A stretch of DNA of 27,852 nucleotides, taken from positions 868 through 28,719 of the IMG/VR virus record IMGVR_UViG_3300030109_003585; one strand, 5' to 3'. Within the stretch, counting starts at the first letter, position 1. The number at the start of each line of letters is the position of its first letter. This document shows positions 585-27,852 of this stretch, in pieces. The notes beneath the pieces are model-generated. The model saw only the letters and a list, made by a program, of their open reading frames with translations. It ran no database searches and was not told the DNA's origin. This DNA is from a virus. The translations under genes and the position numbers were made by a program.

Positions 585-3002
585 ATGGCAGAGTCTGGCA
601 TTAAAAGTTATTTCCCGAGTCAAACTGTAAGCGACGCTGAAAAGCTTAGCTATGATTATGGTTTAAGAGTAGGTAAGGCAATTGAAACAGAATGGTTTAA
701 TAGCGATAGAAGTATTAACAAGTATAAGTCTAATCAAAATAATTTTCATAATTTAAGATTATACGCTAGAGGCGAACAGTCTATACAAAAATATAAGGAT
801 GAGTTGTCTATAAATGGTGATTTGTCCTATTTAAATTTAGACTGGAAGCCAGTACCTATTATATCTAAGTTTGTAGATATAGTTGTTAATGGTATAGCTG
901 AAAGAACTTATGATATAAAAGCTTATTCTCAAGATCCGTTTGGCATGGAAAAGAGAACAAAATATGCTGAAGCTTTAATGTCTGATATAAGGATGCAAGA
1001 GTACAACACTTTTGTTGCACAGTTTGGAATAGACTTAACAAAAAGTAATGTTGAACAATTGCCAGAAAGTATTGAAGAAGCTGAATTGTACATGCAGTTA
1101 ACTTATAAACAAGCTGTAGAAGTTGCTGAAGAACAAGCTTTAAATGTTTTATTTGAAGGTAATGATTATGAGCTTATAAAGAAAAGATTTTATTACGACC
1201 TTACAGTTCTTGGTATTGGTGCTGTAAAAACATCTTTTAATACTTCTGAAGGTATAGTTATTGACTATGTAGACCCAGCAAACTTAGTTTATTCTTATAC
1301 TGACTCGCCTTACTTTGATGATATATATTATGTTGGTGAAGTTAAAACAATACCTATAAACGAATTAGCAAAACAATTTCCTCATTTAAGTGAAAGTGAT
1401 TTAGAGGATATAATGAAGAATAAGTATAACAATAGAAGTAATTATAACAGTAGACACTCTACACACAAAGAAGATAACAACACTATACAAGTTTTATATT
1501 TTAATTATAAAACATATATGAACGAGGTTTATAAAATAAAAGAAACTGGTAGTGGTGCAGATAAAATTATACCTAAAAACGATCAATTTAATCCACCAGA
1601 AAACATGGAAGGTGGTTATAGTAAAATGTTAAGATCTATCGAGTGTCTTTATGACGGTGCAATGATTTTAGGTACAAATAAATTACTTAAGTGGGAAATG
1701 GCAAGAAATATGATGCGCCCTAAAAGTGATTACACTAAAGTTAAAATGAACTATGCTATTGTAGCTCCTAGAATGTATGACGGTAGAATTGATTCACTAG
1801 TAAAACGTATAACTGGTTTTGCTGACATGATACAACTCACGCATTTAAAATTACAACAAGTAATGTCACGTATGGTTCCAGATGGTGTTTATTTAGACGC
1901 TGATGGTTTAGCTGAGGTTGACCTTGGTAATGGTACTAATTACAACCCTCAAGAAGCTTTAAACATGTTCTTCCAAACAGGTAGTGTTATTGGTAGATCG
2001 TTTACTCAAGATGGTGATATGAATCCTGGTAAAATACCTATTCAAGAAATAACTAGCGCAAGTGGCGGTAATAAAATGCAAGCTCTTATTGGTAATTACA
2101 ATTATTATTTGCAAATGATAAGAGATGTAACCGGATTAAACGAAGCTAGAGATGGTAGTACTCCTGACAAAAATGCTTTAGTTGGCGTTCAAAAACTAGC
2201 TGCAGCAAACAGCAACACAGCAACAAGACATATACTTCAAGCTGGTTTATACTTAACAGCTGAAACTGCTGAATGCTTATCACTTAGAATATCTGACGTT
2301 ATAGAATATTCACCAACAAAAGATGCTTTTATACAAGCTATTGGTTCTTACAATGTAGAAACACTAGAAGAAATTTCACAACTTCATTTATATGACTTTG
2401 GTATATTCATAGATTTAACTCCAGATGAGCAAGAACGTCAATTACTTGAAAACAATATTCAAATGGCTTTACAGCAACAAAGTATAGATTTAGAAGATGC
2501 TATTGATCTTAGGGATATTAAAAATATTAAATTAGCAAATCAACTTTTAAAAATAAGAAGAACTAAAAAGCAAGAAAGAGACAGGCAGATGCAATTAGAA
2601 AATATTCAAGCGCAGACACAGTCTAACTCACAAGCTGCACAAGCTGCCGCTCAAGCAGAAGTACAAAAAGAACAAAGCTTAAACCAAACTAAAATTGAAT
2701 TAGAAACAGTTAAGTCTCAACTAGACGAGGGCAGAATGACTAAAGAAGCAGAATTAAAAAAAGAGTTAATGGCTTTAGAGTTTGAGTACAACATGCAATT
2801 AAAAGGAATTGAAGTTGAAGGTCAAAAATCAAAAGAAACAGAAAAAGAAGATCGTAAAGACGAAAGAACAAAAATTCAAGCATCACAACAAAGTGAGATG
2901 ATTGAACAAAGAAAGACGGGTAAACCACCTAAAAACTTTGAATCTTCAGGTAATGATATATTAGGTGAAGGTATTGATTTAAGTGGATTTACTCCTCGTT
3001 AA
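585..3002 (+). CDS. Portal protein
   Basis: An 805-residue protein in the position and size range of portal proteins of large podoviruses. The portal forms a dodecameric ring at one capsid vertex through which DNA is packaged and released, and it docks the terminase and the tail. The first ~640 residues are mixed alpha/beta with the long helices and acidic loops usual for portals (for example the stretch around MARNMMRPKSDYTKVK and the later ITSASGGNKMQALIGNY). From about residue 655 to 785 the sequence is almost pure Gln/Ala/Glu/Lys heptad-like helix, which would form a coiled-coil barrel extending into the head, as in portals of P22 and crAss-like phages (family knowledge). The start follows the leader AATAATAAAT with no Shine-Dalgarno motif. 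It sits between terminase and scaffold. No catalytic motif is expected or seen. Confidence 0.87.
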   Translation: MAESGIKSYFPSQTVSDAEKLSYDYGLRVGKAIETEWFNSDRSINKYKSNQNNFHNLRLYARGEQSIQKYKDELSINGDLSYLNLDWKPVPIISKFVDIVVNGIAERTYDIKAYSQDPFGMEKRTKYAEALMSDIRMQEYNTFVAQFGIDLTKSNVEQLPESIEEAELYMQLTYKQAVEVAEEQALNVLFEGNDYELIKKRFYYDLTVLGIGAVKTSFNTSEGIVIDYVDPANLVYSYTDSPYFDDIYYVGEVKTIPINELAKQFPHLSESDLEDIMKNKYNNRSNYNSRHSTHKEDNNTIQVLYFNYKTYMNEVYKIKETGSGADKIIPKNDQFNPPENMEGGYSKMLRSIECLYDGAMILGTNKLLKWEMARNMMRPKSDYTKVKMNYAIVAPRMYDGRIDSLVKRITGFADMIQLTHLKLQQVMSRMVPDGVYLDADGLAEVDLGNGTNYNPQEALNMFFQTGSVIGRSFTQDGDMNPGKIPIQEITSASGGNKMQALIGNYNYYLQMIRDVTGLNEARDGSTPDKNALVGVQKLAAANSNTATRHILQAGLYLTAETAECLSLRISDVIEYSPTKDAFIQAIGSYNVETLEEISQLHLYDFGIFIDLTPDEQERQLLENNIQMALQQQSIDLEDAIDLRDIKNIKLANQLLKIRRTKKQERDRQMQLENIQAQTQSNSQAAQAAAQAEVQKEQSLNQTKIELETVKSQLDEGRMTKEAELKKELMALEFEYNMQLKGIEVEGQKSKETEKEDRKDERTKIQASQQSEMIEQRKTGKPPKNFESSGNDILGEGIDLSGFTPR

Positions 3003-8968: not shown

Positions 8969-11900
8969 ATGCCGGAGATTAAAAACGAGTTCACCAGCGG
9001 AAAGATGAACAAGGATCTTGATGAGAGACTCGTTCCAAAAGGTGAATATAGACACGCGATGAATATACAAGTGTCGACATCAGAAGAATCTGAAGTTGGT
9101 ACTGTTCAAAATATACTAGGTAACGAGCAAGGCTGTAGTGATGCTTTAATATCTCCTTTCTCATATACAGTAGGCTCTGTTTCTGATGAAAAAGATGATT
9201 CTTTATATTGGTTTATATCTGGTTTAAATATGTCAGATTACGATACGCCAGGTTCTGGAGATATTTTACAAGCAATAAATCAACAAGAGAATTTATCGCA
9301 AATACTATTAGATTTTGAAAATGGCGATCAAAACATTATGTCTTTAAAAGATATGATTGTTAGAAAAAAGACAGATGAATCTTGTGAGCCTGTTTTTGTA
9401 GATTCGTTTGCTTTTTTATTAGCTAATAATGATGAGGTATATTTAGCAGGGCCTCCTTATGCTACTTGGATGATTGGTGTTGAAAAAGAAATAACAGATA
9501 TATGTGAACCTGGTTGGAAAGTAAGAGGTATTGATTCAAGTGGAAATGGTTTATCTTCAAGAACAATAACAACTATAAAAGATGTTACGGCCATACCTTT
9601 TACGGCTGAGTTTACGGTAGGTTATACACCAGTAATGCAACAGTTAGAATACGCTTTTCAAATTGAAAACATAGGAAGTGACGCTGCAAATCCTGTATAT
9701 AAAATTGTTAGAGATAAAATACTTGTAAGACCTGTTGTAGGTGACGTAAGTACTTTTAATCCTATAGCTGGTGCTACTATAAATCTTTTTCATCCTTTTG
9801 GACAGTGGGATCCTGTTGCTGTTTCTGATACAAATACTAATAATGTAGTAGTATTTACTGCTAACATTCCAGTTGGTGGTCCTGCTGGTGGTTTTGTTAC
9901 TTCAGATTTAGCTTTTGGTGGTACTGTTTACGGGTGTACAGATCCTACAGCTACCAACTACGATCCTAACGCAACAATAGATAACGGTTCGTGTTTCATT
10001 GCCGATGACGAAGCCGCTGATGACGATACTGTTTCATATGGTAGTTATAACTTACCAATAAGCCCTATACTTTATAGTGCCGATGGCGCTGGTGGTGGTT
10101 CTGGTGCGTGGACAAACGTAAGCTGGGTTCAAGTCGATTTAGCTCAAGATATTAATTTATTTAGTATGTTTAATGATTTTAGTATCATGCCGGATAATGT
10201 TGATGCTCAATATGTTAACATTAATGACAATCCAGCGGGACCGTTTGCATATTCTATTCCACTTGGTACTGTATATGGAAATGCTTCTTGGATGGTTCCA
10301 GATCCTGATGGTCAACCAACAGGAGAGTTAGTAGTAAATAGCAACTTTGATGATATATCTGTTGGAGATGAATTATCTTCTTTTGGTAATATGAATTATG
10401 ATCATACTCTTGATTTAGTTGTTGGTAGTAAATTTACTAGAACTAATAATGATGGTACTTTTGACGATATAATAACTATTGAAGACTCTAGCACTAGCAC
10501 ATTGCAAGTGCCATTTATGCAGTGGGGTAGCACAGGTGTTTTGGTTTTTAAAGAGCTTGATTTTAAAACAATAGTACTTAGTCCACCACCTAGTAATTGG
10601 GGTGCTAATGGTGATAACGTTGCAGCGTATTTATTTTACGGCGAAGAAAAGCGTGTTTTAAAGTTTAATAGAAATAGACTTATAACAGGAGTTAACATTA
10701 TAGATGATATGCTATTTTGGACAGATAACTTTAGTGAACCAAAAAAAATAAACATACCAGATAGTATAGAAGGTACTAATCCAAATGGAACAATACATAC
10801 TAGAGTTGTAAATAAAAAATTAAGTCCTCCTTTAGGACTAAAAGATATAAATATTACTAATATTGAATTACCTGTAAAGGAGCAGCATATAACAGTAATA
10901 AAACAATCACCAAAAGCTAAGCTAGTATTAGATTTAGAAACAGACAGAGAGATTGGAGAAAACTATACTGGCATAATGAGAATTACAACTCAAGATTATG
11001 CTAACCAATCGTCTTTTACAGGTAGCTCGGCAATAAAAGGGCGTTATGATTTTTCAGGCTTAGAAACTACTGGTGCTAATGACGATACTGATGCTGAAAA
11101 TACTATTTCTTTTAATATTGAATCAGATCTTGATGGAAACGATAACTTCACCTTAAATAATTGGAAAGAAGGTTCTACTATCATATTAAAAGAGTTTGAC
11201 GAGGAAGACAATGCACCAATTCCACCTATAACTGATTATAGTATAAAAGGTGTAATATCTGAATGGCAATATAATCGCTTTACTGGTACTTCATCAGATA
11301 AAGCTCGTGTTAAGATTGAAATAACATCCATAAAAGGAAATCCATCAGGCGTAGGTTATGGTGATATTCTTAAAAATTATGCAGTTGATCTTTTTGATCA
11401 AAATCCTAAAACGTTATTTCAATATAAATTCCCTAGATTTTCTTATAGATATAGATACAGAGATGGAGAGTATTCTACTTTTGCTCCTTTTACAGAGATA
11501 GCATTTATTCCTGGAAGCTTTGATTATCATGTTAAAAAAGGTTATAATCTAGGTATGACAAATAGATTAAGAACATTAAGACTAAAAAACTTTATTACTA
11601 GCGACATGCCTGAAGATGTTGTTTCTATTGATCTATTGTATAAAGACGATGCTTCTACAAATATTTATATAGTTGATACAATAAGTCCAACTGATCAAGC
11701 TAGTGATGGTGGTATGTATAATGATTGGGTGAAAAATAGATATAAATTAACTAGTGATACTATACGCGCGGTAATACCATCAAATCAATTATTAAGAGCT
11801 TATGATAACGTTCCTAGAAAAGCTTTAGCACAAGACATTGTAGGTAATAGAATTGTATATGGTAATTATGTTCAAGGATACGACATGATTGCTGATGGCA

Positions 11901-14900
11901 AAGAGTTTTCTCCAGTTTTTAAACATTATTTATCTGACAACAACACAACAGGTCTTGCTGCTAGTCAGTCAATAAAATCATTAAGAGATTATCAAATTGG
12001 AGTTGTTTTTACGGACAAATACGGTAGAGAAACACCGGTATTGACAAATAATTCTGGCGCTTTTAAAATAGACAAACTAGAGTCTCCTAATAGAAACAAG
12101 TTAAACGTAAAATTAAGAAACAATTCATTTCCAAAAGATGTAACTCATTTTAAGTTTTTTATTAAAGAAACTTCAGGCGAGTATTATAACTTACCAATGG
12201 ACAGATGGTATGATGCAGACGATGGTAATATCTGGTTATCTTTTCAATCTTCTGATGTAAATAAAATTGATTTAGATACTTATATAGTTCTTAAAAAAGG
12301 AGAGGATTCAACTAGTTTGGTTGAAGAATCCGCTAGGTATAAAGTTTTAGCAATATCAGATCAAGCGCCAGAGCACATTAAAAAAGAAGTTAATAATATT
12401 GGAAAAATACTTCAAGGTGTTGAAGATGATGATGGTGATAGTTTAGATGATAGACTGTTTGTTAGTGATTCAGACTGGCCGTTAATTGGTGGTAAAACAT
12501 TTGTTTGTAATAAAAATAGACTTGGTAAAGGTAACAGTTTATATGGTATAGTTGACATAAAAGAAACTCTTTATGTTGAGTTTAGGCAGGGTAGTAAAAT
12601 ATCTGAAAGGTATAAAATAACAATGGTGTCTAGAGATAGAATTGCTGGAGACGTTGGTGATGTTGATGGTGATTTTGGATTTACTGTAGAAAGACCTTTT
12701 GAAAGTGACATTAGTTTTATATTTGAAGGATCTTCAACTGCACCTCAAGGTATATTTAGCGATGTATCTGTGGTGTTTTACAAAGAAGAAATAATAAACT
12801 CTCCAAAATTTGATGGTAAATTTTTTGTAAAAATATACTCTGACGAGGTTTTTTATAAAAATATTGGTAATATATATGATATTCAAGATCAAGAATACAA
12901 TATATTAGGTCGTAAAAAAATATATTTATTACCTGGAGATCTTAAAAAAGCTCATAATCGTAATGATTATAAAGCTTTTGGAGATGAAAACTGGTTTTAT
13001 GATCTTGTTCGTAGAGGATCTTCAGACTGGGATGCTGGTCTAAGCGAAGGTAGTATTAGTGGGGCTGGTCCTTTTTTAAGCAAGATGCGTGATGTTGGAG
13101 GAGAAGTAATAGGTGGTGGAATGCATAACCGTCGACATTTTTGGCAAACTGGTATGGCTCAACATCCTAGTGATTTTCAATATTGGAGAGCGTTTTTTAA
13201 ACATGATATATCTAGTGTTGCTGTAAAATGGGGTGGTATTGGTACTATGTTTTCAACAGTTCCAGAAGCTAATCAAGATGTAAATTTACCTTTTGATCCA
13301 GACAAAAGTACTTACGAAGAATTTTCTAATGGAGTAGATGATGATAATTTTAGAAAAAGAATGCCAACTACATGGCATCCCGCTTTTGGAGCTACTCCAG
13401 GAACTAAAACAGCTAATTTTACAACTGACATGTTTGATTGCATGCTTCTAGATAGATCTTTAAGAAACGATGCTGAAAATGGATATGAAGATGTTTATTT
13501 TATTGACGCTGGTCAGTATAAAGGTGTTCATGGTAGTGATTGGCGAAGATGGGCACACGAAACTTATGGTCCTTCAGGCAAGAGTAAATCAGGAAGAAAA
13601 ACAAGCACGGGTATAACTAACTATGGTAGCTCTAATGATGGTAAAATGGAATTAGCTATTGGTCCTATAAGACAAGAAAGTGGTCTGATGTGGATGGATT
13701 ATGATGATGATTTTGAAAATGAAAACTTTTGGACGTTTGATAGACAAGATTGGTACGAATCAAATAGTTTTTTTGATAGATTTACACCAGGGGCAAGATT
13801 TAGATGGAAAGAAGATCCTACAGGAACAATATATACCGTATATGGTAGCACTGCACGTAGAAACCGCCTTAGATATTTGTCATATAGAAAAATTGATCAA
13901 GCTGTAGGTGATGAATCTGATTTAGCAAAAGATTCTATTTCATCACACCGAAGAAAAGCACCATTTACTCATTTAGCTGAAAATCATACAAAAGGATTTA
14001 AATCATATTTTAAACCTAGAATGCAATGGAATCCTCAAGGTAGTGGAGAAGGTGTGATTAGTGGAAGTAGAAAAATTAACAAAATAAAAACAACAGCAGA
14101 TGGCTCTCCAGCTAATTTAATGAGTGATGGTACTTTTGGTGAAAATTGGCTTAGAATAGACCAAAATAATTTTCAATATACTTACGATAGTGAGTACAAC
14201 GAAAGAGCTCCTTTAGAAATAGGTATGATGCTTTATAGAATAGGTACTACTCAAGTAACTAGTTGGACTGATAATACTGGAAAGTTATTAAACCCACTTA
14301 TTATTAAAGATATAAATAGAAACGACAATGGGTATTATTATATTTATTTTAACGGTTATGATAGAGCTTCTTTACCTACTCCATTAAATGACGGCTCATC
14401 TCCTGGTTTTTCTGGAACACCACAAGCTTTAGATTTTAGACAACCTAAAATGAATGGTTTAAGCGAAAACTCTAGAAGAAATATAAATTATTATAGCAAT
14501 GAAACACTTGGTCAATTTAACATTAATAGTGAGTACCTTACACCAACAGGAACCGAACATCATATTGGTATTGCTGCTATTGGATATACTTTAGAATTTG
14601 TTGTACCAATAGAAAGAGAAAAACCTTTACCTACAAATCCTTCTGTTTGGGAAACAGAACCAAAAGAAGGAACTGATTTAGATATATATTATGAAATAAC
14701 AGAAAACAACCCTGTATACTTAACACAAGAAACAGCTAAAACTGCATTTCCTATAGGTTCTGAAATATATATAAATGAAGGTGGTCATTGGGATCCTGAT
14801 AAAACAGTAAAAATAACAGGTATAAACGAACAAGAGTTTGATAGAATTAGATTAAGTCATCCGGTATGTGGTGGAGGTTCTGACTGTGTAAATATAGACG

Positions 14901-17900
14901 AAAATAATTTAGTAGCACTTTATCCTGGAAGTTACATTAAAATAAAAAGACCAAGTGGTATATTGTTTACAGCAAAAGTGGCTGATGTAGGTAGCAACGT
15001 TGGACATGATGATGCTCCAAGTGAAGTTGCAGGATCTTTTGTGCAAGAATTAAAAATAGAACATGATTTGTATAGAGGTAATCATCGTTTAAATTGGCAT
15101 AACTGTTTTTCTTTTGGTAATGGTGTAGAGTCTAATAGAATTGGAGATACTTTTAACATGCCATTTATTTCAAATGGTGTAAAAGCATCGTCAACACTAG
15201 AAGAAAGATACGAAGAAGAGCGTAGAAAACATGGCCTTATATATTCTGGTATATATAATTCAACTTCAGGTGTAAACAACCTTAATCAATTTATACAAGC
15301 TGAAAAAATAACTAAAGATATAAATCCAATATATGGTAGTATACAAAAGCTACATATGAGAGATTCTAATTTAGTAACACTTTGTGAAGATAAAGTTTTA
15401 AAAATATTAGCGCATAAAGATGCTTTATTTAATGCTGACGGAAATCAACAGTTAACAGCTACTGACAAAGTACTTGGTCAAGCAACTCCTTTTGTTGGTG
15501 AGTACGGTATATCTAAAAATCCAGAATCATTTGCTTCAGAATCATATAGAGCTTATTTTACAGATAAAGTTAGAGGTTCTGTATTACGATTATCTATGGA
15601 TGGTTTAACACCTATATCCGAGGCTGGCATGAAAGATTATTTTAAAGATAACTTAAAATTAAATAATAATCTTATAGGTAGTTATGATGATAAAAAACAA
15701 GAATACAACATAACGTTACAGCAAAGCGAAACTACTGTTACTTTTAGAGAAGACGCTGGTGGTTGGGTTAGTTTTAAATCGTTTGTACCAGAAAGTGGTG
15801 TTAGTTGTGCTAACGAATATTACACGTTTAAAAACGGTCAACTATGGCAACACCACAAAGAAAGCGTTGATAGAAATACTTTTTATAATTCTTTTATACC
15901 TTCTAGTTTTAACGCTATAATGAATGAAGGTGCTGGTATTATAAAAACATTTAATACTTTAAACTACGAAGGCTCTCAAGCTAAAGTAGATCAATTATTA
16001 TCTTATGATACATTTGCGCCAGGAACAAGCGTTGTTACCGCTACATATAGTGATAACGAATATTATAATTTACAAAATAAAGACGGTTGGTTTGTTGAGC
16101 ATATAAAAACAGATTTAGAAGAAGGAACTGTCAATGAATTTATAAAAAAAGAAGGTAAATACTTTAACTATATAAAAGGTAAGGTTGGTTCTATAAATAA
16201 TTCTTCAGGCGTAATACAATCTGGTTTTGACAATGCGGATAATTCTTTTCAAGGATTAGGTGTGGTTACAAACGCAGTGTTATCTAATGCTTTTGGTTGT
16301 ACTGATCCATTGGCGTTTAATCATAATGATAGTGCTAGTGTAGATGACGGGTCTTGTATAGATGTTGTTTCAGGTTGTACTGATCCACTAGCTGATGCTG
16401 GTTATGATGTTTCTCATAATACAGATGATGGTAGTTGTATTTATTATGGCTGTACTGATTCTACGGCAACTAACTACAATGCCGCTGCTAACACTAATGA
16501 TGGTTCGTGTATTGCTACTGTATTAGGTTGTACTGATTCTAGTACTTTTACAGCTGGTTCACCACCAACTAGTTATTATTCTTACATTAATTATGATAGC
16601 CTAGCTAATGTTGATGATGGTAGCTGTATTGCTACTGTGTTAGGTTGTGACAATCCTGCTGCTACTAACTATAACGCTAACGTAAATACTAATGATGGTA
16701 GTTGTGTTATATCTGTACAAACTTGTAATGATATTAATGCTTGTAATTACGATCCACAAGGAGATCAAGATGGTTACACTCACTCTTGGGACGCTGCTAG
16801 TTATTGTTTATATTGTGGAGATAATACAGCTAATAACTTTGATGGCGCAACAGGAAGTTGTATCAGTACTTGTGAGTACTGTATACTGCCAACACCAAAT
16901 GTTCTTAATTTACTCTATAAAACCACATCTCAAGTTGCTGTTCAAGTTACACTTCCAAGTGCTACAAACGCAGCGACAGCAAGCAGCGTTATTTTTCAAT
17001 ATTATGAAACTTCAAATCCAGGAGTAGTTACTACTCAGTCTTATAATCCAGTAGGAGCAACACCTGGTGGTACTTATACATACGTTATCGTAGGATTACA
17101 AGATAACACAGAATATACAATTAATTATAAAATAGTTTGTAGTAACACTGAGTCTCCTGTTAGTGATAACTTAGTATGTACAACTGATCTTGTACTTGTT
17201 AATGGTTGTACGGATATTAATGCTTGTAATTATGATTCTTCAGCTAACAATGACGATGGTTCATGTGACTTTGCAACGTGTGCTGGGTGTACTGATCCTG
17301 CATACTTAGAATACTGTAACACTTGTTGGGATGCTGCTAATTTTGCAGTTGTACCAGAAGGAACTGGTGGTCCATGGCAACTTGATGATGGTTCATGTTC
17401 TACTTTAATAATTAACGGTTGTACTGATTCTACGGCTCTTAACTTTGATCCAGCTGCCAATGTTGATGATGGTTCATGCGTTGCGGTTGTTTTAGGTTGT
17501 ACAGATGATACTTTAGGTGTAGACGGCGCAATAGCAGCAACAAATTACGATCCAAATGCTAATACAGATGATGGAAGTTGTACTTATGAAACCTCTGCAA
17601 TTACAGGTTCATGGATTTTTAATACAAATGCAGGTGTACTTATTAATGCTGAATATATTGTTACTGTAGGTAATATACCTGTTGGTAGTATAATAAGCAA
17701 TCCAACTAATAACGTTGGTCAATCTAATAATCCAAGCGAAGGATTTAGTAGTAATCTACATAGTAGTTATTACTCTGGTGACCAAACAGCTATATCAGGC
17801 GTAAACACGTACTCTTTAGCTATAGTTCCAGAAAGTGCAATAACTCCAAACGCTTTAGCTGGTTTAATATATATGAATTTAGATCTTATTTCAGTAAACT

Positions 17901-18574
17901 ATAATGGCTTTATGTTGTCTGGTGGTATGTTTAGTGGTGGAGGTGGAGAGTTAATAACAATTGGCTGTACAGATCCTGCTGCTTGTAACTATGATTCTAC
18001 AGCTATTATAGATGATGGTTCATGTGTTATGCCTGATGGATGTGGTGATAGTAACGCTTTAAATTACGATAATACTGTAACTTGTCCAGATGATAATGAC
18101 TGCGTTTATTGCGCAACAGATCCTGGTATTACTAATGCTACTTTGTCTTTCAACACGTCTATTGTTAACGCTAACATTACTATAAATGCTGCAGAAATAA
18201 ATTGGAGCGGTTACAATAATACAAATACTAACGGTACTTTTCAATCTCAAGATGGTAATTTAAATGTTTACAAAGTAGAATATAGATACAAATTGCCTGG
18301 ACAAAGTTATAGTGCGTGGACAAGTGTTAGTTCAAACTCTTCAAACTGTAACGGTAATTATTATCATGTCCAGCTTACATATGGTCTTAGTGTTACTGGC
18401 TCGGAATTTGTAGACATGGGCTATGGTCTTAGTGGTGATGGAAGGTTTAACGCTGGAACGAAATGGAGGTTTAGAATTCGCAACCTATGCACTAACTGTA
18501 ACTTAGGTCCAGGCGGTATAACCACATGGTCACCAGTGTTTACATTGTCGCAAGACATTATATCAACTTTTTAA
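8969..18574 (+). CDS. Giant tail stabilisation/muzzle-type protein with cysteine-repeat and FN3-like C-terminus
   Basis: A 3201-residue protein. The N-terminus (EIKNEFTSGKMNKDLDERL, then YRHAMNIQVSTSEESEVGTV) is the recognisable opening of a large tail protein of marine Bacteroidetes phages, probably counterpart to T7 gp12 or the crAss-like muzzle that forms the distal tail tube. Landmarks of the conserved core: INIPDSIEGT preceded by IIDDMLFWTDNFSEPKK (YWTD-propeller-like), FSYRYRYRDGEYSTFAPF, NVPRKALAQDIVGNRIVYGN, and near residue 2400 KKEGKYFNYIKG. Accessory parts: a beta-rich insert from ~residue 255 to 545 containing one cysteine repeat (322-342); and residues ~2443-3050 with about twelve repeats beginning GCTDP and ending DDGSC, interrupted by a fibronectin-III-like domain (~2635-2735) and other beta-rich sections, plus a final FN3-like domain. 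The extra regions probably face outward and bind the host. The role of the core is from resemblance and gene order. Confidence 0.75.
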   Translation: MPEIKNEFTSGKMNKDLDERLVPKGEYRHAMNIQVSTSEESEVGTVQNILGNEQGCSDALISPFSYTVGSVSDEKDDSLYWFISGLNMSDYDTPGSGDILQAINQQENLSQILLDFENGDQNIMSLKDMIVRKKTDESCEPVFVDSFAFLLANNDEVYLAGPPYATWMIGVEKEITDICEPGWKVRGIDSSGNGLSSRTITTIKDVTAIPFTAEFTVGYTPVMQQLEYAFQIENIGSDAANPVYKIVRDKILVRPVVGDVSTFNPIAGATINLFHPFGQWDPVAVSDTNTNNVVVFTANIPVGGPAGGFVTSDLAFGGTVYGCTDPTATNYDPNATIDNGSCFIADDEAADDDTVSYGSYNLPISPILYSADGAGGGSGAWTNVSWVQVDLAQDINLFSMFNDFSIMPDNVDAQYVNINDNPAGPFAYSIPLGTVYGNASWMVPDPDGQPTGELVVNSNFDDISVGDELSSFGNMNYDHTLDLVVGSKFTRTNNDGTFDDIITIEDSSTSTLQVPFMQWGSTGVLVFKELDFKTIVLSPPPSNWGANGDNVAAYLFYGEEKRVLKFNRNRLITGVNIIDDMLFWTDNFSEPKKINIPDSIEGTNPNGTIHTRVVNKKLSPPLGLKDINITNIELPVKEQHITVIKQSPKAKLVLDLETDREIGENYTGIMRITTQDYANQSSFTGSSAIKGRYDFSGLETTGANDDTDAENTISFNIESDLDGNDNFTLNNWKEGSTIILKEFDEEDNAPIPPITDYSIKGVISEWQYNRFTGTSSDKARVKIEITSIKGNPSGVGYGDILKNYAVDLFDQNPKTLFQYKFPRFSYRYRYRDGEYSTFAPFTEIAFIPGSFDYHVKKGYNLGMTNRLRTLRLKNFITSDMPEDVVSIDLLYKDDASTNIYIVDTISPTDQASDGGMYNDWVKNRYKLTSDTIRAVIPSNQLLRAYDNVPRKALAQDIVGNRIVYGNYVQGYDMIADGKEFSPVFKHYLSDNNTTGLAASQSIKSLRDYQIGVVFTDKYGRETPVLTNNSGAFKIDKLESPNRNKLNVKLRNNSFPKDVTHFKFFIKETSGEYYNLPMDRWYDADDGNIWLSFQSSDVNKIDLDTYIVLKKGEDSTSLVEESARYKVLAISDQAPEHIKKEVNNIGKILQGVEDDDGDSLDDRLFVSDSDWPLIGGKTFVCNKNRLGKGNSLYGIVDIKETLYVEFRQGSKISERYKITMVSRDRIAGDVGDVDGDFGFTVERPFESDISFIFEGSSTAPQGIFSDVSVVFYKEEIINSPKFDGKFFVKIYSDEVFYKNIGNIYDIQDQEYNILGRKKIYLLPGDLKKAHNRNDYKAFGDENWFYDLVRRGSSDWDAGLSEGSISGAGPFLSKMRDVGGEVIGGGMHNRRHFWQTGMAQHPSDFQYWRAFFKHDISSVAVKWGGIGTMFSTVPEANQDVNLPFDPDKSTYEEFSNGVDDDNFRKRMPTTWHPAFGATPGTKTANFTTDMFDCMLLDRSLRNDAENGYEDVYFIDAGQYKGVHGSDWRRWAHETYGPSGKSKSGRKTSTGITNYGSSNDGKMELAIGPIRQESGLMWMDYDDDFENENFWTFDRQDWYESNSFFDRFTPGARFRWKEDPTGTIYTVYGSTARRNRLRYLSYRKIDQAVGDESDLAKDSISSHRRKAPFTHLAENHTKGFKSYFKPRMQWNPQGSGEGVISGSRKINKIKTTADGSPANLMSDGTFGENWLRIDQNNFQYTYDSEYNERAPLEIGMMLYRIGTTQVTSWTDNTGKLLNPLIIKDINRNDNGYYYIYFNGYDRASLPTPLNDGSSPGFSGTPQALDFRQPKMNGLSENSRRNINYYSNETLGQFNINSEYLTPTGTEHHIGIAAIGYTLEFVVPIEREKPLPTNPSVWETEPKEGTDLDIYYEITENNPVYLTQETAKTAFPIGSEIYINEGGHWDPDKTVKITGINEQEFDRIRLSHPVCGGGSDCVNIDENNLVALYPGSYIKIKRPSGILFTAKVADVGSNVGHDDAPSEVAGSFVQELKIEHDLYRGNHRLNWHNCFSFGNGVESNRIGDTFNMPFISNGVKASSTLEERYEEERRKHGLIYSGIYNSTSGVNNLNQFIQAEKITKDINPIYGSIQKLHMRDSNLVTLCEDKVLKILAHKDALFNADGNQQLTATDKVLGQATPFVGEYGISKNPESFASESYRAYFTDKVRGSVLRLSMDGLTPISEAGMKDYFKDNLKLNNNLIGSYDDKKQEYNITLQQSETTVTFREDAGGWVSFKSFVPESGVSCANEYYTFKNGQLWQHHKESVDRNTFYNSFIPSSFNAIMNEGAGIIKTFNTLNYEGSQAKVDQLLSYDTFAPGTSVVTATYSDNEYYNLQNKDGWFVEHIKTDLEEGTVNEFIKKEGKYFNYIKGKVGSINNSSGVIQSGFDNADNSFQGLGVVTNAVLSNAFGCTDPLAFNHNDSASVDDGSCIDVVSGCTDPLADAGYDVSHNTDDGSCIYYGCTDSTATNYNAAANTNDGSCIATVLGCTDSSTFTAGSPPTSYYSYINYDSLANVDDGSCIATVLGCDNPAATNYNANVNTNDGSCVISVQTCNDINACNYDPQGDQDGYTHSWDAASYCLYCGDNTANNFDGATGSCISTCEYCILPTPNVLNLLYKTTSQVAVQVTLPSATNAATASSVIFQYYETSNPGVVTTQSYNPVGATPGGTYTYVIVGLQDNTEYTINYKIVCSNTESPVSDNLVCTTDLVLVNGCTDINACNYDSSANNDDGSCDFATCAGCTDPAYLEYCNTCWDAANFAVVPEGTGGPWQLDDGSCSTLIINGCTDSTALNFDPAANVDDGSCVAVVLGCTDDTLGVDGAIAATNYDPNANTDDGSCTYETSAITGSWIFNTNAGVLINAEYIVTVGNIPVGSIISNPTNNVGQSNNPSEGFSSNLHSSYYSGDQTAISGVNTYSLAIVPESAITPNALAGLIYMNLDLISVNYNGFMLSGGMFSGGGGELITIGCTDPAACNYDSTAIIDDGSCVMPDGCGDSNALNYDNTVTCPDDNDCVYCATDPGITNATLSFNTSIVNANITINAAEINWSGYNNTNTNGTFQSQDGNLNVYKVEYRYKLPGQSYSAWTSVSSNSSNCNGNYYHVQLTYGLSVTGSEFVDMGYGLSGDGRFNAGTKWRFRIRNLCTNCNLGPGGITTWSPVFTLSQDIISTF
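9932..9994 (+). repeat. Isolated GCTDP...NGSC cysteine repeat unit
   Basis: One 21-residue unit (residues 322-342 of the giant tail protein) starts GCTDP, has NYDPNA in the middle and ends DNGSC. It is the same motif as the cluster at 16295-18112 but lies over 6 kb upstream, within a beta-rich insert next to an acidic linker (DDEAADDD). It probably caps or links an outward domain. Confidence 0.85.
16295..18112 (+). repeat. Cluster of about twelve cysteine/aspartate repeats in the giant tail protein
   Basis: Units coded at 16295-16357, 16373-16438, 16448-16510, 16526-16627 (expanded), 16643-16705, a degenerate pair in 16721-16861, 17204-17266, 17285-17398 (expanded), 17417-17479, 17495-17581, 17963-18025 and a degenerate 18038-18112. 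The typical unit is 21-22 residues: GCTD at the start, a central NYD or NFD with small residues, and DDGSC at the end. Each has two cysteines, likely joined, and acidic residues that could bind calcium. Repeats of this kind are known from secreted Bacteroidetes proteins (recalled). Some units are enlarged by inserts, and an FN3-like domain (about 16870-17190) and a beta-rich section (17582-17962) split the array. Confidence 0.9.
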
Positions 18575-21538: not shown

Positions 21539-22435
21539 ATGAGTGTAGCTATTGTCGCTGTTGGAGCTGTTGCTGTTGGTGCTTATAGTGCCTACAAGGG
21601 ATCTCAAAATGCTAAAAAAGCAAATGAATTAGCCGAAGCAAACATGATTCAGCAACAGGGAGTAGAAGCTTCTAAACTTGCCACACAAAGAGAAGAGCTT
21701 CGTAAGATGGAAAAACAAAAAGATGTTTACAGATCTATGGAATTTACAAATCCATATGCTGAAAATGTTATGGAGGACTTAACAATAAACCAAGCTCAAG
21801 CTGAGTTTGAAAAAGGAATGTTTCAACAACAACAAGCTAATGTCATGCAAGGATTACAAGGTGCGGCTGGTGGATCTGGTATAGGCGCGTTAGCACAATC
21901 GTTAGCAGGTGCTGGTGCTCAACAAGCACAAAGAGCATCAATATCAATTGGTCAGCAAGAAAGACAAAACATGATGTCAAGATTACAAGGCGAACAATTA
22001 AAACAAAAAGGTGAAGCTCTTGTAGAAGAAAAGGAAATGAGTAGACAGTCTACACTACTTGGTATGCAAATGGGTCAGTTAAGTGGTGCTAATCAAGCAG
22101 CTAATCAAGCGCAACAAAACATGATGCAAGCTAGAGCGGCTCAAGCAAACATGTATGGACAACAAGCCGCAGCTCAAACACAAATGGCTGGACAAATGAT
22201 GGGTACTGGTTTAGGTATGATGTCTGATAGACGACTTAAAAAGAATATAAATAAAATAGGTGAATCACCTAGCGGCTTGAACATATATAGCTTTGAATTT
22301 ATAAATCCAGAACATGGTAGCGGTTTATACCAAGGTGTAATGTCTGATGAAACTCCAAAACAAGCTGTTATAAGTGTTGGTGGTTATGACACTGTAAATT
22401 ACAATATGTTAGATGTAGAATTTAAAAAAATATAA
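21539..22435 (+). CDS. Internal virion/ejection-like protein with C-terminal S74 chaperone domain
   Basis: A 298-residue protein. Residues 2-20 form a Gly/Ala/Val-rich hydrophobic helix (VAIVAVGAVAVGAYSAYKG), probably membrane-inserting. Residues 25-220 are Gln/Ala/Met-rich helix, like T7 gp14 or P22 ejection proteins. Residues 229-298 are a Peptidase_S74 / intramolecular chaperone domain: SDRRLKKNINKIG, then SGLNIYSFEF, YQGVMSDE and VNYNMLDVEF. Ser229 and Lys234 are five apart, the spacing of the self-cleaving Ser/Lys pair in endosialidase chaperone domains (family knowledge), so cleavage before Ser229 could free a 70-residue C-terminal piece. It is the first of three consecutive genes that resemble an ejection set. 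Fusion of S74 to an ejection-type helix protein rather than a beta fibre is less usual. The next start codon is one base after its stop. Confidence 0.7.
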   Translation: MSVAIVAVGAVAVGAYSAYKGSQNAKKANELAEANMIQQQGVEASKLATQREELRKMEKQKDVYRSMEFTNPYAENVMEDLTINQAQAEFEKGMFQQQQANVMQGLQGAAGGSGIGALAQSLAGAGAQQAQRASISIGQQERQNMMSRLQGEQLKQKGEALVEEKEMSRQSTLLGMQMGQLSGANQAANQAQQNMMQARAAQANMYGQQAAAQTQMAGQMMGTGLGMMSDRRLKKNINKIGESPSGLNIYSFEFINPEHGSGLYQGVMSDETPKQAVISVGGYDTVNYNMLDVEFKKI

Positions 22436-22436
22436 A

Positions 22437-23969
22437 ATGAAAGCAGATAAATCATTACTTAACGCTTCTAACGAAATGAGCACAACTACGGGTTTTAATT
22501 ACAATGAAGTGTTTAACAAGCAATATGAAGGCCTTGTAGAGTTCAACAAACAAATAGGAGAGCTACAATTAACTGATAATGGTCCAAATAGAGTAAGTGA
22601 TGCTAATGAAGATTTAAAACTGTCAGCAAAGGCATTAGAAAAATTATCAACTGAAATGACTTTTAGTGGTATAAAAACATTTAAAGATCACTATGAAGAA
22701 AATGGTTCTTTAAATCAAGGTGTTATTGATGTAGCTTTTAATGATTTAAATTTAAAAGGAACAGAGTTAGAGGCTTTACAAATAAGAAAAACAACAAATC
22801 AAAAAGATAAAAAAAGACAAAGTCAACTTCGTCAAGAAGTTGCACAATGGAGAAAAAATCTTGTTGAAATAAAACCTTTAATTACAAGCACTGTTAAAGG
22901 TCTTGTTGAAGGGCACTACAACGAAGAGTTAAGCTTTGCAAACGATTTAGAAATTGGTCCAGTATTAAAACAATGGCTTGATCCAAAGTCTGATTACCAA
23001 GAGCTAGGTATTGGTACTTACTTTAGCAATACTGGAGAGATGTATATAACATACACACCTGGTAAAGTTTTTAAATCTGAATATGAAAATAATAAAAAAA
23101 GGTTAAACTACGACCCGCGTATAGAGGCTGAAGTTGATGCAATGAAAAGACAAATAGAAGATGAACAAGGTATGACTGTTGGCTTTGAAGATCAAATGGC
23201 AAGTCGTAGTATTTATGGTGCTTCTGCTGGTGACGATCCTATTCAAGGCGGAATGCTTCCAGAAGTAAACATAGAAGGCACTAAGGTTATTTCAGTAAAA
23301 GATGCTTTAAATGGTTTTGTAAAAAAAGATATAAAAACTGGAAACAAAATAAATGACGTTTTTGGGCAAATTATAGAAACAAGTCAAAACACAATGCCAT
23401 CGCAAGATAAAAAAACACAGATTTATCAATATGAAAATCTTGAAGATTTAGAAGCAATAGCTCATGATAGCTATATGGATTTGTTTTTAACTGCAGATCC
23501 TGAAACTGGTGAATTTGCAAACATACATGATTTATCTACTAGAGATCAACTTATTGGTGGTCAAATGAGAAATTACAAACAAGACTTACTTGACGAAAAA
23601 TCATTTTTTCACAAACTAAGATACGAAGATGTAGGTTTAAAAAACTCATTAGATGCTGATAAAGATGGCTTTGTTTCAAATAATGAACTAGACGAAAAAA
23701 GTAAAGAAGATTTAACAGAAATATTAACTAATCCTAAAACTTCATCTCAAAGAAAAATAGCTTCGGAACAATGGGCTTGGTATTTAACGCAAATAACTAA
23801 ACAAGCCGCTGAAAGCCAAAGAAAAAGACAACTAGGCGCTAATACAGTTAGTGGTTTATCATCTTCTGTTGAAGCTGCTACTGCTGGCTTATCAGAATCT
23901 ATGCAAGAAAGTGCTGAAGAAGGAACGTCAGAACTAGCACAACAATTAATTGAAAAATATAGTAAATAA
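22437..23969 (+). CDS. Internal virion-like protein with EF-hand loop
   Basis: A 510-residue hydrophilic, mostly helical protein whose family I do not recognise. No signal peptide or membrane helix is visible. Residues 406-417 (bases 23652-23687) form a perfect EF-hand type calcium loop, DADKDGFVSNNE, with Asp at 1, 3 and 5, Gly at 6 and Glu at 12, flanked by helices. The last 60 residues are Ser/Glu/Ala-rich. Its start codon ATG is one base after the stop of the S74-domain gene, so translation is probably coupled. Position between a small membrane-helix protein and a giant protein mimics T7 gp14-gp15-gp16, suggesting a role as the middle member of an ejection or internal core set; this is inference from size and order only. 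Confidence 0.6.
   Translation: MKADKSLLNASNEMSTTTGFNYNEVFNKQYEGLVEFNKQIGELQLTDNGPNRVSDANEDLKLSAKALEKLSTEMTFSGIKTFKDHYEENGSLNQGVIDVAFNDLNLKGTELEALQIRKTTNQKDKKRQSQLRQEVAQWRKNLVEIKPLITSTVKGLVEGHYNEELSFANDLEIGPVLKQWLDPKSDYQELGIGTYFSNTGEMYITYTPGKVFKSEYENNKKRLNYDPRIEAEVDAMKRQIEDEQGMTVGFEDQMASRSIYGASAGDDPIQGGMLPEVNIEGTKVISVKDALNGFVKKDIKTGNKINDVFGQIIETSQNTMPSQDKKTQIYQYENLEDLEAIAHDSYMDLFLTADPETGEFANIHDLSTRDQLIGGQMRNYKQDLLDEKSFFHKLRYEDVGLKNSLDADKDGFVSNNELDEKSKEDLTEILTNPKTSSQRKIASEQWAWYLTQITKQAAESQRKRQLGANTVSGLSSSVEAATAGLSESMQESAEEGTSELAQQLIEKYSK
23652..23687 (+). other. EF-hand calcium-binding loop
   Basis: The twelve codons encode DADKDGFVSNNE, which fits the canonical EF-hand loop D-x-D-x-D-G-x5-E. 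It is a single loop; EF-hands usually come in pairs, and no second one was found in this protein. Confidence 0.75.
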
Positions 23970-23975
23970 AATTAT

Positions 23976-26900
23976 ATGACTAAATCAGAAGTAATACTTA
24001 AAGCCGTAAGTGAAGGTGCTACAGATGAAGAGTTGATGGTTTTAGAGTCAACTCCGGAAGATCAGTTTGAGCTAAACATTGCTAGTGCTAATGATCCAGA
24101 CGCTACTGTAGAGGGTGTTGCTGATGTTGCTATTGAAGGTTCAGAAAAAGAAGAAGAAAAAACTGATGATAAACTTTATGATGTTGGTTTTATAGAAGGT
24201 CCAAAAATATTACCTCAACCAGAAACCGAAGAAGTGTTTGGTTTTTTAAGATCTGATACCGAGCAGTATGAAAAAAATTTAAGAAACTTTTTTAACACAA
24301 AAGAAGAAAATTCACAAATACAATTACAAAAAATTCTTGGTGATGAATATGAAATATCACAAACAAATACTGATGTTACAGATGATGAAGAGTTAAAAAA
24401 ATATAAAAAAGGTTTAATTAAAGATTTAAATAGAAATGCTTTAATAATAAAACATAAAAACACTGACGAGCAAATAGTTGTAAACTTTGGTATTGACGAT
24501 CTCAACAACGAAGATTTAGAAAAAGTATTATATAATAAAGAGGCAAAAAAATTATTTGACTATGTTAATAAAACTATTTCTAAAGAAGGTTTAGTTGAGT
24601 CTAAACAACAACAACAAATAGCCTTAGATTTATATAACGAATTAAACGCCGCACCTGTATACAATAAAGAAACTAAAGAAGAAATAAAAAAAGCTGGACC
24701 TCTACATGTTTCTGTTACTACAAAAAATAAAATAAGAAAAGAAGTAGATGAAATTTCATTTGAGCCTATAACAAAAAAAGTTTACAAGCCAATTGGAAAA
24801 AATATTTCTAGTAGAGAGACTATTGACGTAACAGAACAACCATATGAAGAAGAGCTACAAAGAGTAAAACAAGAGTTTATTAATAATGGTGTAGAAAATC
24901 CTACAGAACAACAAATACAAGATAGAGTAAGAGAAAACCTGTATTACGAGCGAGTACAAAAAGAATATGATCAAAAAGCCGCTAATTATTTTAACTCTAA
25001 TAAAGTAGAAGAAACTGATTTAAATGCAATATTAAAGCTAGGTGCTACAATGAGTAGAAACTTAACTGTTGAAAAGAAACAAGAACTAGCAATAAACAGT
25101 AATAAATACACTAAACTTTATGATGATTTTGAAGAAGACTTAAATGACGAAAACTCAGAGTTAAGTTTAGCAAAAGAGTTTATAGGTATTGTAACAAATG
25201 TTGAGCCAACTGTTTATGATAAAACTGATTTTGAAAAACAAAGAATACAAAAAGAAAACGAAATAAATTCATTAAACAATTGGTTTAAAGAAAATAAAGA
25301 GTCAAATTTTCCTATAACAGGAATGCTTTATGATTTAAAAGTTAAAGAAATAAATCAAAAGGTTAAAAAATATAATGACTTTTTAGAAGAAAATCAAGAC
25401 AATAGAATTGTAGTTCTAGAAAACGGAACAAGAATGCCAAGGTATAAGTATGAAAAATATGCTATGGCTTTAAAAACATATAACGATCGAGCTGGTGAAG
25501 TAGATGCTTTACATGAAAAAATATTTAGTGATATTAGCGATATAGAAAACGAAGATATTAAATACGATTTAGTAAGAAGAAATTATAATGATGGCGAAAA
25601 GTTTGTGCGAGTAGTATCTGCTGGTTTTGGTGATATGTCTATAAAGGCCGCTTATGGTTTAAACAAACTAAGTTCTGGTTTGTTTGGTATAGATGATAAA
25701 TCTATTGACGAAAAATATGGAAAATGGGAAGAGGCTAGCAGTGCTTTAAGTAAAGTTAGACAAGAGTTTCAAAAAGACATAGAGTTTAAAGATGCTTTTA
25801 ACAAAAAAAATATTGGTAGGTTTTTTGTTCAAGAATTGCAAAATCAATTACCTATATTTGCTACAATAGCAACTGGATCTGTGGGGCTAGCAACATTAGG
25901 TTTATCTAGCTTTAAAGAAAACTGGAGCAGAATGGTACAAGATGAAAAGTTTACTGGAAGCAGAACGTCTTTATTAAATAAAATGCTTATAAGCGGTGGT
26001 TATGGTGCTGCTGACATTGTTTTTGATAAATATTTAACACTACCAGTAATGCAACGTAGTGGTAGATCTTTATTTGGTAGTTTAAACAAGTTTAGAGATG
26101 CTACTAGAAATAGCATGCAAAATTATTTTAAACAAAACTATAAAAGGCAATTAGTTTTTGATCCTATTTTAGAAACAACCTCAGAAGTCCTTACTACTGG
26201 TTTCCAAAATATGATTACAGGTAGACCAATAATGGAAAACATGGGCCATTCTGCTTTTAGCGGTGGTATGTTTGGTTTTGGTTTTGGTGGTGCTCCTTTT
26301 ATGAAAGGAATAATATTATCAAAATTTGGTGATTACAATAGCTATGGTAATTTTAGAAGTAATTTAAAATCTCTTACTAATTTACAAGTAACTAAAGAAA
26401 AACTAAACATAAGTTTAAAAACTAACAAAACAAAAGGTAATGATACTTCTGCTATAGAAAGTAATATAGAAACTGTTAATACTGAAATACAAAGTTTACA
26501 GACTGAAAACGAAAGTATAATAAAATCTGTAGAAAACAAAACAAATAATTTATCTAAAAGATGGTTTGATACTTATGTTGCTGCTACAAACGAACAAGAG
26601 CAAATAAGAATTGATGTTGAAAATATTGCTAAAGACGAAAGTTTATCTAGTTCTGAAAAACAAAACTTAATAAATATTAAGCAGAAAAAATTTGATGCGC
26701 TTCAGCAAACTAGAGATATTTTAAGAGATGACGAGGCGTTTGGTAACGATTATTCTGGATTTAGAAACAGCAACAAAAAAGAAGATCAAGATAGATTACA
26801 AGAAATACAAAGTCAAGCTACATCAGAGTTAATTAATGAAGGAACGTTAGAACCTAAAGACGATGCTATAGATACTAGGTCTAGAATAATATTTAACACA

Positions 26901-27852
26901 CAAGAAATAAACAAAGATTACAACTCTAAGAAAGACATGTTAGATGGTGCTAATTTTCAAAACTTTCAAACAATAGAGCAAGCTGTAAAATTTGTAGAAA
27001 AAATGGACTTAGCTGATAATGCTAAGCAAAATATTATTTCAAATATAGAACAAGGTGCTCATGGTGTAAATATTATAGACAATACAGAAGCTATAACACC
27101 AATACAAGTTGTTGCAAATATGGCTAAAGGTGATCGTTTAGAAACTAGAACACACGAAATAGGTCACACTGTTTTTGCCGCTGCCTTTGGCAATAACAAA
27201 GAAGCATTTGATGATATAGCCGACTCAGTGTTAGAGTTTGTAAAACAAAAAAATGAAAGTCTTCATGTAAAAATGTTAAACCAAGTAGAAAGAGGCAGAG
27301 ACGGTAAAATGATAAGCGAAGAAGTTTTAACAAACTTTTTAGAAATGGTTGCTGAAGGTAAAATAGATAATAAATCTGAAAAGAATAAAGGTATAATCCC
27401 TTTCTTTGCAAATGCCTTAAACATAGGCGCTAAAAAATCATTAGGTGAAAAAGCAGATTTTAATTTTAAAGGAGAAACTGACGCTGTAAACTTTTTAGTT
27501 AATCTTGGTAAAAAAATAAAAGCAGGTACTTTAACCATAAAAGATATACAAGATATACAAGATACTGGTATAGCTCAAAAAGTAAAAACAAAACCTGAAA
27601 CTAAATTTTCAAAAGAAGCGTCTGATAGAGTACAAGCTATATACAATGAAAAAGGTGAAGCTGGCGCTATGGAAATAATAGAACAGTTTAAACCTATAAC
27701 AAGTAGACTAGTTGAAAGACGTAGCCAAGCCCCTAACTTTGATAGACAACTATTAACTGATGAAATAGAAACTGGTAAACGTGGTATATTTGATTTAATT
27801 AGAAAGTACGATCCTAGTAAAGGTGTGCCTTTAGCTGCTTACATTAACCAAA
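23976..27852 (+). CDS. Giant internal virion protein with HExxH metalloprotease-like motif (3' end outside window)
   Basis: The frame is open from the ATG at 23976 to the last base, at least 1292 residues; the stop lies beyond the window. The N-terminal ~600 residues are Lys/Glu-rich and helical with coiled-coil character. Hydrophobic or Gly-rich stretches at residues ~625-645 (LPIFATIATGSVGLATLGL) and ~755-780 (SGGMFGFGFGGAPFMKGIIL) could insert in membranes during DNA ejection. Residues ~835-860 and 880-930 are again helical. Residues 1060-1064 are HEIGH, an HExxH zinc motif in the context ETRTHEIGHTVFAAAFG; Glu1123 or Glu1127 (LEMVAEG) could be the third ligand. The end reads IRKYDPSKGVPLAAYINQ, a motif recalled from large phage multi-domain proteins. 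It resembles T7 gp16 in size and place, but with a protease-like rather than a transglycosylase motif. The start follows the leader AAAATTAT. Confidence 0.75.
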   Translation, partial: MTKSEVILKAVSEGATDEELMVLESTPEDQFELNIASANDPDATVEGVADVAIEGSEKEEEKTDDKLYDVGFIEGPKILPQPETEEVFGFLRSDTEQYEKNLRNFFNTKEENSQIQLQKILGDEYEISQTNTDVTDDEELKKYKKGLIKDLNRNALIIKHKNTDEQIVVNFGIDDLNNEDLEKVLYNKEAKKLFDYVNKTISKEGLVESKQQQQIALDLYNELNAAPVYNKETKEEIKKAGPLHVSVTTKNKIRKEVDEISFEPITKKVYKPIGKNISSRETIDVTEQPYEEELQRVKQEFINNGVENPTEQQIQDRVRENLYYERVQKEYDQKAANYFNSNKVEETDLNAILKLGATMSRNLTVEKKQELAINSNKYTKLYDDFEEDLNDENSELSLAKEFIGIVTNVEPTVYDKTDFEKQRIQKENEINSLNNWFKENKESNFPITGMLYDLKVKEINQKVKKYNDFLEENQDNRIVVLENGTRMPRYKYEKYAMALKTYNDRAGEVDALHEKIFSDISDIENEDIKYDLVRRNYNDGEKFVRVVSAGFGDMSIKAAYGLNKLSSGLFGIDDKSIDEKYGKWEEASSALSKVRQEFQKDIEFKDAFNKKNIGRFFVQELQNQLPIFATIATGSVGLATLGLSSFKENWSRMVQDEKFTGSRTSLLNKMLISGGYGAADIVFDKYLTLPVMQRSGRSLFGSLNKFRDATRNSMQNYFKQNYKRQLVFDPILETTSEVLTTGFQNMITGRPIMENMGHSAFSGGMFGFGFGGAPFMKGIILSKFGDYNSYGNFRSNLKSLTNLQVTKEKLNISLKTNKTKGNDTSAIESNIETVNTEIQSLQTENESIIKSVENKTNNLSKRWFDTYVAATNEQEQIRIDVENIAKDESLSSSEKQNLINIKQKKFDALQQTRDILRDDEAFGNDYSGFRNSNKKEDQDRLQEIQSQATSELINEGTLEPKDDAIDTRSRIIFNTQEINKDYNSKKDMLDGANFQNFQTIEQAVKFVEKMDLADNAKQNIISNIEQGAHGVNIIDNTEAITPIQVVANMAKGDRLETRTHEIGHTVFAAAFGNNKEAFDDIADSVLEFVKQKNESLHVKMLNQVERGRDGKMISEEVLTNFLEMVAEGKIDNKSEKNKGIIPFFANALNIGAKKSLGEKADFNFKGETDAVNFLVNLGKKIKAGTLTIKDIQDIQDTGIAQKVKTKPETKFSKEASDRVQAIYNEKGEAGAMEIIEQFKPITSRLVERRSQAPNFDRQLLTDEIETGKRGIFDLIRKYDPSKGVPLAAYINQ

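Follow-up and report, generated by a model that had tools for sequence, protein, structure and literature searches.

The locus studied here raises the question of whether the giant open reading frame (ORF) at its right end, which contains the motif HEIGH, encodes a zinc metalloprotease carried by the virion, and what such a domain could do in the infected cell. The window, that is the whole stretch of DNA analysed (27,852 nucleotides), corresponds to bases 868-28719 of a 28,719-base IMG/VR virus record. It contains the end of a terminase gene, a portal gene, capsid-type and tail genes, and the giant ORF. The genes and regions needed to place the giant ORF are the following:

585..3002, + strand: portal protein (PHROG 6547, 4e-153)
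21539..22435, + strand: upstream gene at a gp14-like or cargo position, placed as phi38:1 gp99; member of a virion structural protein family (PHROG 6121, 2e-12)
22437..23969, + strand: upstream gene at a gp15-like or cargo position, placed as phi38:1 gp100; no family match, nor any other match to its product in database searches
23976..27851, + strand: giant ORF of at least 1292 aa, encoding a probable ejected cargo protein; open at the contig end
25593..26345, + strand: N-terminal hydrophobic, ejection-type module of the giant protein, limits approximate (residues ~540-790; strongest hydrophobic stretch 624-646)

The portal protein exhibited 36-53% identity with the portals of flavobacterial phages, namely Flavobacterium phage elemo, Maribacter phage Panino, Caudoviricetes MW202828, and Cellulophaga phi38:1 and its relatives. 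The gene order from the terminase to the last late gene was that of phi38:1 and elemo. The tail protein encoded at 8969-18574 (3201 aa), which contains many repeats of the type GCTDPxAxNYDPxANxDDGSC, matched the C-terminal domain of the crassvirus muzzle protein (PF25729, 2.1e-5). Relatives of the giant protein were not found in the bacterial genome collection, hence no prophage context was recovered. Based on the portal identity, the gene order, the muzzle-type match and this lack of relatives in bacterial genomes, we take the phage to be a marine lytic podovirus of flavobacteria, the host being deduced from these sequence comparisons. The C-terminal end of the protein encoded at 21539-22435 (SDRRLKKNI...GLNIYSFEF) resembles the intramolecular chaperone motif of tail spikes (peptidase S74), despite the ejection-protein position of the gene; peptidase S74 gave no Pfam match in this protein.

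The giant gene is incomplete in the record, its ORF reaching the end of the contig, and complete homologues in IMG/VR contigs were mostly 2100-3000 aa long. Its place in the gene order is that of phi38:1 gp101 and elemo gp90 (QLF85284.1, 3694 aa), both annotated “structural protein,” a term that comes from the records, as our literature search recovered no proteomic proof of either protein in virions. Searches of Pfam and PHROGs with the giant protein of the window itself gave nothing relevant, and tblastn of the whole protein against annotated phages gave no matches. A family HMM built on the ~450 residues preceding the putative protease domain matched elemo gp90 (5e-29), Panino CDS69 (3e-25), and phi38:1 gp101 (7e-25), with E-values computed at Z=100000 that are optimistic because of large composition-bias terms. 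The equivalent region of the crassvirus phiCrAss001 codes for cargo proteins, together with RNA polymerase proteins of the virion, that mass spectrometry detected in the particles (PMC10172136). Since the giant protein shares both its gene position and its N-terminal module with annotated structural proteins, we infer that it is packaged and ejected, and consider that it is probably a virion cargo protein.

The C-terminal part of the giant protein carries the features of interest:

26958..27353, + strand: core of a zincin-like metallopeptidase domain, residues 995-1126 (AlphaFold models, Peptidase_M78, PHROG 87)
27153..27167, + strand: HEIGH, residues 1060-1064 (His1060, Glu1061, His1064), predicted to act as two of the zinc ligands and as general base
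27321..27323, + strand: Glu1116, predicted third zinc ligand
27342..27344, + strand: Glu1123, within LEMVAEG; acidic position, not invariant, in the same helix as Glu1116
27609..27851, + strand: sigma-70 region-2-like domain, residues 1212-1292, truncated where the contig stops

The loci of relatives were collected from viral contig scans with the C-terminal 292 residues of the giant ORF as query, yielding 164 usable sequences including that of the window, dereplicated to 83. The mean pairwise identity of the zincin domain among these 83 sequences was ~26%, and the window copy averaged 17.5% with the others. Between residues 1000 and 1159, the columns of lowest entropy were His1064 and Glu1116 (both 83/83), Glu1061 (82/83), and His1060 (79/83). 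The HEIGH motif described by the original prediction at residues 1060-1064 is thus real, and the conservation of its first two residues in relatives was borne out. The same prediction had sought a further ligand in the segment LEMVAEG, which begins at residue 1122, and this choice did not hold: column 1123 contains D (52), E (25), N (5), or T (1) in the 83 sequences. Glu1123 and Glu1127 were both rejected as third ligand because their columns vary, the invariant glutamate being Glu1116, seven residues before Glu1123.

The exceptions within the motif were few. Glu1061 is replaced by Asp in a single sequence, L007 (8054-11206), whose motif reads HDTGH and whose ORF ends at 1051 aa, shortly past the sigma-like domain, by a frameshift or a split gene. 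His1060 is replaced by Glu in L071, L076, L088, and L172. These four sequences form one clade with a support of 0.994, so that the change probably arose once. In these sequences EELFH or EEIFH replaces HExxH, whereas the positions of Glu1061, His1064, and the predicted third ligand Glu1116 are unchanged, which makes the clade a natural active-site variant. Neither phi38:1 gp101 nor Panino CDS69 contains HExxH, and we thus regard the zincin domain, on this comparison, as accessory to the cargo protein. The giant protein of MW202828 (L016:741-12320, 3859 aa) contains two HExxH motifs, at residues 1615 and 2500; its annotation, “reticulocyte binding/rhoptry protein,” looks wrong.

We obtained AlphaFold models for the window sequence and for a central homologue, L052. 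The latter (pLDDT 86) starts with a helix (3-21) followed by three strands (27-32, 60-64, and 71-76), a helix (88-102) that holds HELGH in a block with pLDDT of about 94-95, and a helix (145-162) in which Glu151 sits. The model of the window sequence, of lower confidence (pLDDT 75), exhibits the same order of elements, with HExxH in helix 1058-1071 and Glu1116 in helix 1114-1126. The helix-like context proposed for HEIGH was therefore recovered in both models, and the predicted fold places HExxH and the invariant Glu1116 on C-terminal helices that follow one another as expected. With its three-stranded sheet and N-terminal helix, the L052 model matches the core of the zincin-like metallopeptidases (MPTases) described for polyvalent proteins (PMC5512222). 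Additional helices are inserted between the HExxH helix and the Glu helix in the models of the family, a feature also reported for the polyvalent-protein zincin group (PMC5512222).

Profile searches pointed in the same direction. Pfam Peptidase_M78 (PF06114) matched 19 of the 81 homologous domains at E<=1 (best 6.9e-7), the central member scoring 20.8 bits against a curated cut-off of 22, and PHROG 87 “metallo-protease” matched 8 of 81 (best 7.3e-5). Weak matches to SprT-like and “putative zincin” profiles were also obtained among the homologous domains, together with one match to a PHROG virion RNA polymerase (0.0044); no model of the Pfam MPTase-PolyVal type was among the matches listed. When the structural model was compared with BFVD using Foldseek, the top match was a protein from an uncultured virus (7.7e-9) and the second the structural protein of elemo (E 0.013, prob 1.00); entries for a PolyVal metallopeptidase and for SprT-like proteins appeared in lower rows. 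Against PDB, the two-domain L052 query gave nothing at E<=0.001, and the only metalloproteases among the best 50 rows were lethal-factor zincin entries (E 1.8 and 2.7, prob <=0.12); a first model, based on the window sequence with the sigma part truncated, gave no significant structural match with Foldseek. Given the near-invariant HExxH and Glu1116 and the zincin layout of the AlphaFold models, we assign the domain to the zincins, with a predicted gluzincin-type HExxH...E signature, and the site formed by the predicted ligands His1060, His1064, and Glu1116 is almost certainly a zinc site. The original prediction of a polyvalent-type metallopeptidase in a giant protein thus stands as regards the zincin signature and the very probable virion cargo, the glutamate that it named being the part to correct. 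Its further suggestions, namely that the protease stands in for the transglycosylase of T7 gp16, acts on host factors or the cell envelope, or processes virion proteins during maturation, gained no positive support.

A second domain, overlooked in the original prediction, starts ~100 residues after the zincin domain and is better conserved than any other part of the family (consensus FKPITNKIVERRSxAPNFDRQLLTDEIETGKRGIxDLIxEYxPESGVPLAAYINKFLPARAIEAS). Most of the best 50 PDB rows obtained by Foldseek with the L052 model were sigma factors, including the N-terminal domain of SigE (8b3z_F, prob 0.97, TMt 0.72, rmsd 2.6 over 82 columns) and sigma-S (6omf_F, prob 0.99), with E-values of 0.07-2.8, perhaps owing to the two-domain query. 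The comparison by hhalign with a small set of sigma factors gave P=1e-4 (prob 58); in a control with 57 segments along the protein, only segments overlapping the domain scored (P 3e-4 and 8e-4), the best segment without overlap reaching P=0.18. PHROG 1025 “RNA polymerase sigma factor” matched 11 of 22 members (best 0.0037), and the best PDB sequence match to the segment was a sigma factor in the same register (E 0.65). By Foldseek, hhalign, and PHROGs, segment 1212-1292 thus resembles sigma-70 region 2.

Pfam PF04542 gave no match in the window record. Its four matches in the relatives (16 relatives) correspond to separate ORFs of ~250 aa and were rejected as evidence on the giant protein. Contigs L095-L098 encode such a separate ~250-aa sigma factor, with PF04542 over the cut-off, besides the sigma-2-like domain of their giant protein. 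Sigma region 4 was not found downstream by hhalign (P=0.47), and a complete sigma factor within the giant protein was rejected, region 4 being absent. The aromatic residues of region 2.3 in Escherichia coli sigma-70 melt the -10 element. In an alignment made by eye, only the position of Tyr430 is kept among these aromatics, and the sigma-like domain may bind to the core of the polymerase yet leave promoters unmelted. A transcriptional role of this domain is possible, if rather unlikely on present grounds.

Zincin-like MPTases are known in polyvalent proteins of phages and plasmids (Iyer et al., 2017; PMC5512222). Two roles have been put forward for them, namely processing of the giant chain to which they belong and, once delivered, action on proteins of the host (PMC5512222). 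The domain studied here resembles them in the position of HExxH in one helix and of the Glu in the second C-terminal helix, in the three-stranded sheet and N-terminal helix, and in its location inside a giant protein with several domains, encoded at a phage late locus. It differs from them by its constant partner, the sigma-region-2-like domain; the word sigma is absent from the main text of the polyvalent-protein paper (PMC5512222), and the coupling of the two domains appears new in the literature searched. Among general profiles, Peptidase M78 (ImmA/IrrE) matched the domain best, HExxH included, but the central member remained below the Pfam cut-off and no accompanying DNA-binding domain was seen.

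Among virion proteins, the closest parallel is the virion RNA polymerase of N4 (vRNAP, gp50), whose C1 subdomain with HExxH adjoins the polymerase (PMC12633501). Both are giant proteins, presumed to be ejected in the present case, in which an HExxH domain adjoins a transcription module. This module is a T7-like RNA polymerase in N4 and a sigma-region-2-like domain in the window family; Pfam scans of complete homologues revealed no polymerase domain. The product of elemo gene 90 shares with the giant protein its gene position, N-terminal module, and HExxH domain (HEIFH at 1543, aligned with the family), whereas the sigma-2-like profile had no match there and the whole proteins are too diverged for tblastn. 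phiCrAss001 is likewise a podovirus of Bacteroidota with a muzzle-type tail protein and two smaller genes at cargo positions followed by a giant one. There, cargo proteins gp45 and gp46 accompany the RNA polymerase proteins gp47/49/50, crassvirus virions carrying polymerase cargo (PMC10172136), whereas the window encodes an MPTase and a sigma-2-like domain. Like T7 gp16, the giant protein comes last in a presumed set of three podoviral ejection proteins and is the largest of them, but no lysozyme or transglycosylase was matched by Pfam in the homologues scanned. Some members of the family contain a P-loop kinase domain (AAA_33 4e-15, zeta-toxin-like), with a PHROG polynucleotide kinase match in L002. 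In the giant proteins L002:7832-15910 and L013:8195-15856, this domain is inserted in a HAD-type motif (FDFDDTL), possibly representing a further effector.

We propose that the phage head houses the giant protein, which leaves the particle ahead of the DNA or together with it. His1060, His1064, and Glu1116 would coordinate Zn2+, Glu1061 would act as general base, and the zincin would work in cis, cutting the giant polypeptide either while the latter is packaged or once it has been ejected. This cut could free or activate neighbouring domains, including the sigma-region-2-like domain directly downstream, which, once released, could engage the host RNA polymerase. That the zincin frees or controls adjacent domains is suggested by analogy with N4 and with the zincins of polyvalent proteins; the cis role is favoured by the precedent of the latter (PMC5512222) and by the domain order. 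We consider this explanation as a whole, a cis-acting zincin in a giant cargo protein that frees its sigma-like neighbour, slightly more probable than its negation. Cis-processing as the role of the zincin, taken separately, falls a little short of an even chance. The more specific scenario in which the zincin of the injected protein releases or de-inhibits the sigma-like domain, which in turn redirects the host RNA polymerase core to the incoming genome, is doubtful. We found no direct sign of cleavage or packaging in the giant-protein family. The clade of four with Glu for His1060 and the single member with Asp for Glu1061 count against a cis-acting protease, and proteolysis may be dispensable in places.

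The most serious alternative, which we nevertheless consider unlikely, is that the zincin fold binds metal without being proteolytic and instead contributes to structure or regulation, through packaging, folding, or auto-inhibition of its neighbour, as perhaps in N4. The N4 vRNAP is packaged unprocessed even though encapsidation depends on the region containing its HExxH subdomain (PMC5512222), which also counts against cis cleavage, and the C-terminal domain containing this subdomain auto-inhibits transcription (PMC12633501). The clade that lost His1060 has, in addition, retained the domain. However, pure scaffolding would require neither Glu1061 nor His1060, and both are kept in nearly all sequences.

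An improbable possibility is a protease acting in trans on host proteins involved in defence, transcription, or the envelope upon entry. Such a function has been proposed for some polyvalent MPTases (PMC5512222), and many polyvalent domains target host systems, but we identified no substrate-binding or host-specific feature, and the constant tandem with the sigma-like domain suggests a role in cis. The location of the giant gene within the late structural cluster would also fit a protease that matures other proteins of the virion, those of the scaffold, capsid, or tail, during assembly; this is very improbable, as phi38:1 and Panino, whose heads and tails are homologous, lack HExxH in the corresponding protein. 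Finally, short motifs do recur in general, but HEIGH as a chance motif in a helical structural protein can be practically dismissed, since the composition of the giant protein (8 His in 1292 residues) predicts only ~0.005 HExxH by chance and H, E, H, and E are near-invariant in 83 diverged sequences.

The zincin domain appears to be a diverged new member of a known phage zincin group, its sigma-like neighbour being the more novel feature. In tailed phages of Bacteroidota, the start of transcription and self-protection during the first minutes of infection are poorly known. If true, the proposal of a cis-acting zincin would provide a testable mechanism for the early takeover of the host RNA polymerase, by a sigma-like domain freed by a built-in zinc protease, and would give a use to the zincin domains that are widespread in injected phage proteins. 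The giant protein would then be a counterpart of the injected RNA polymerase of N4, delivering, in place of a polymerase, an adaptor for that of the host.
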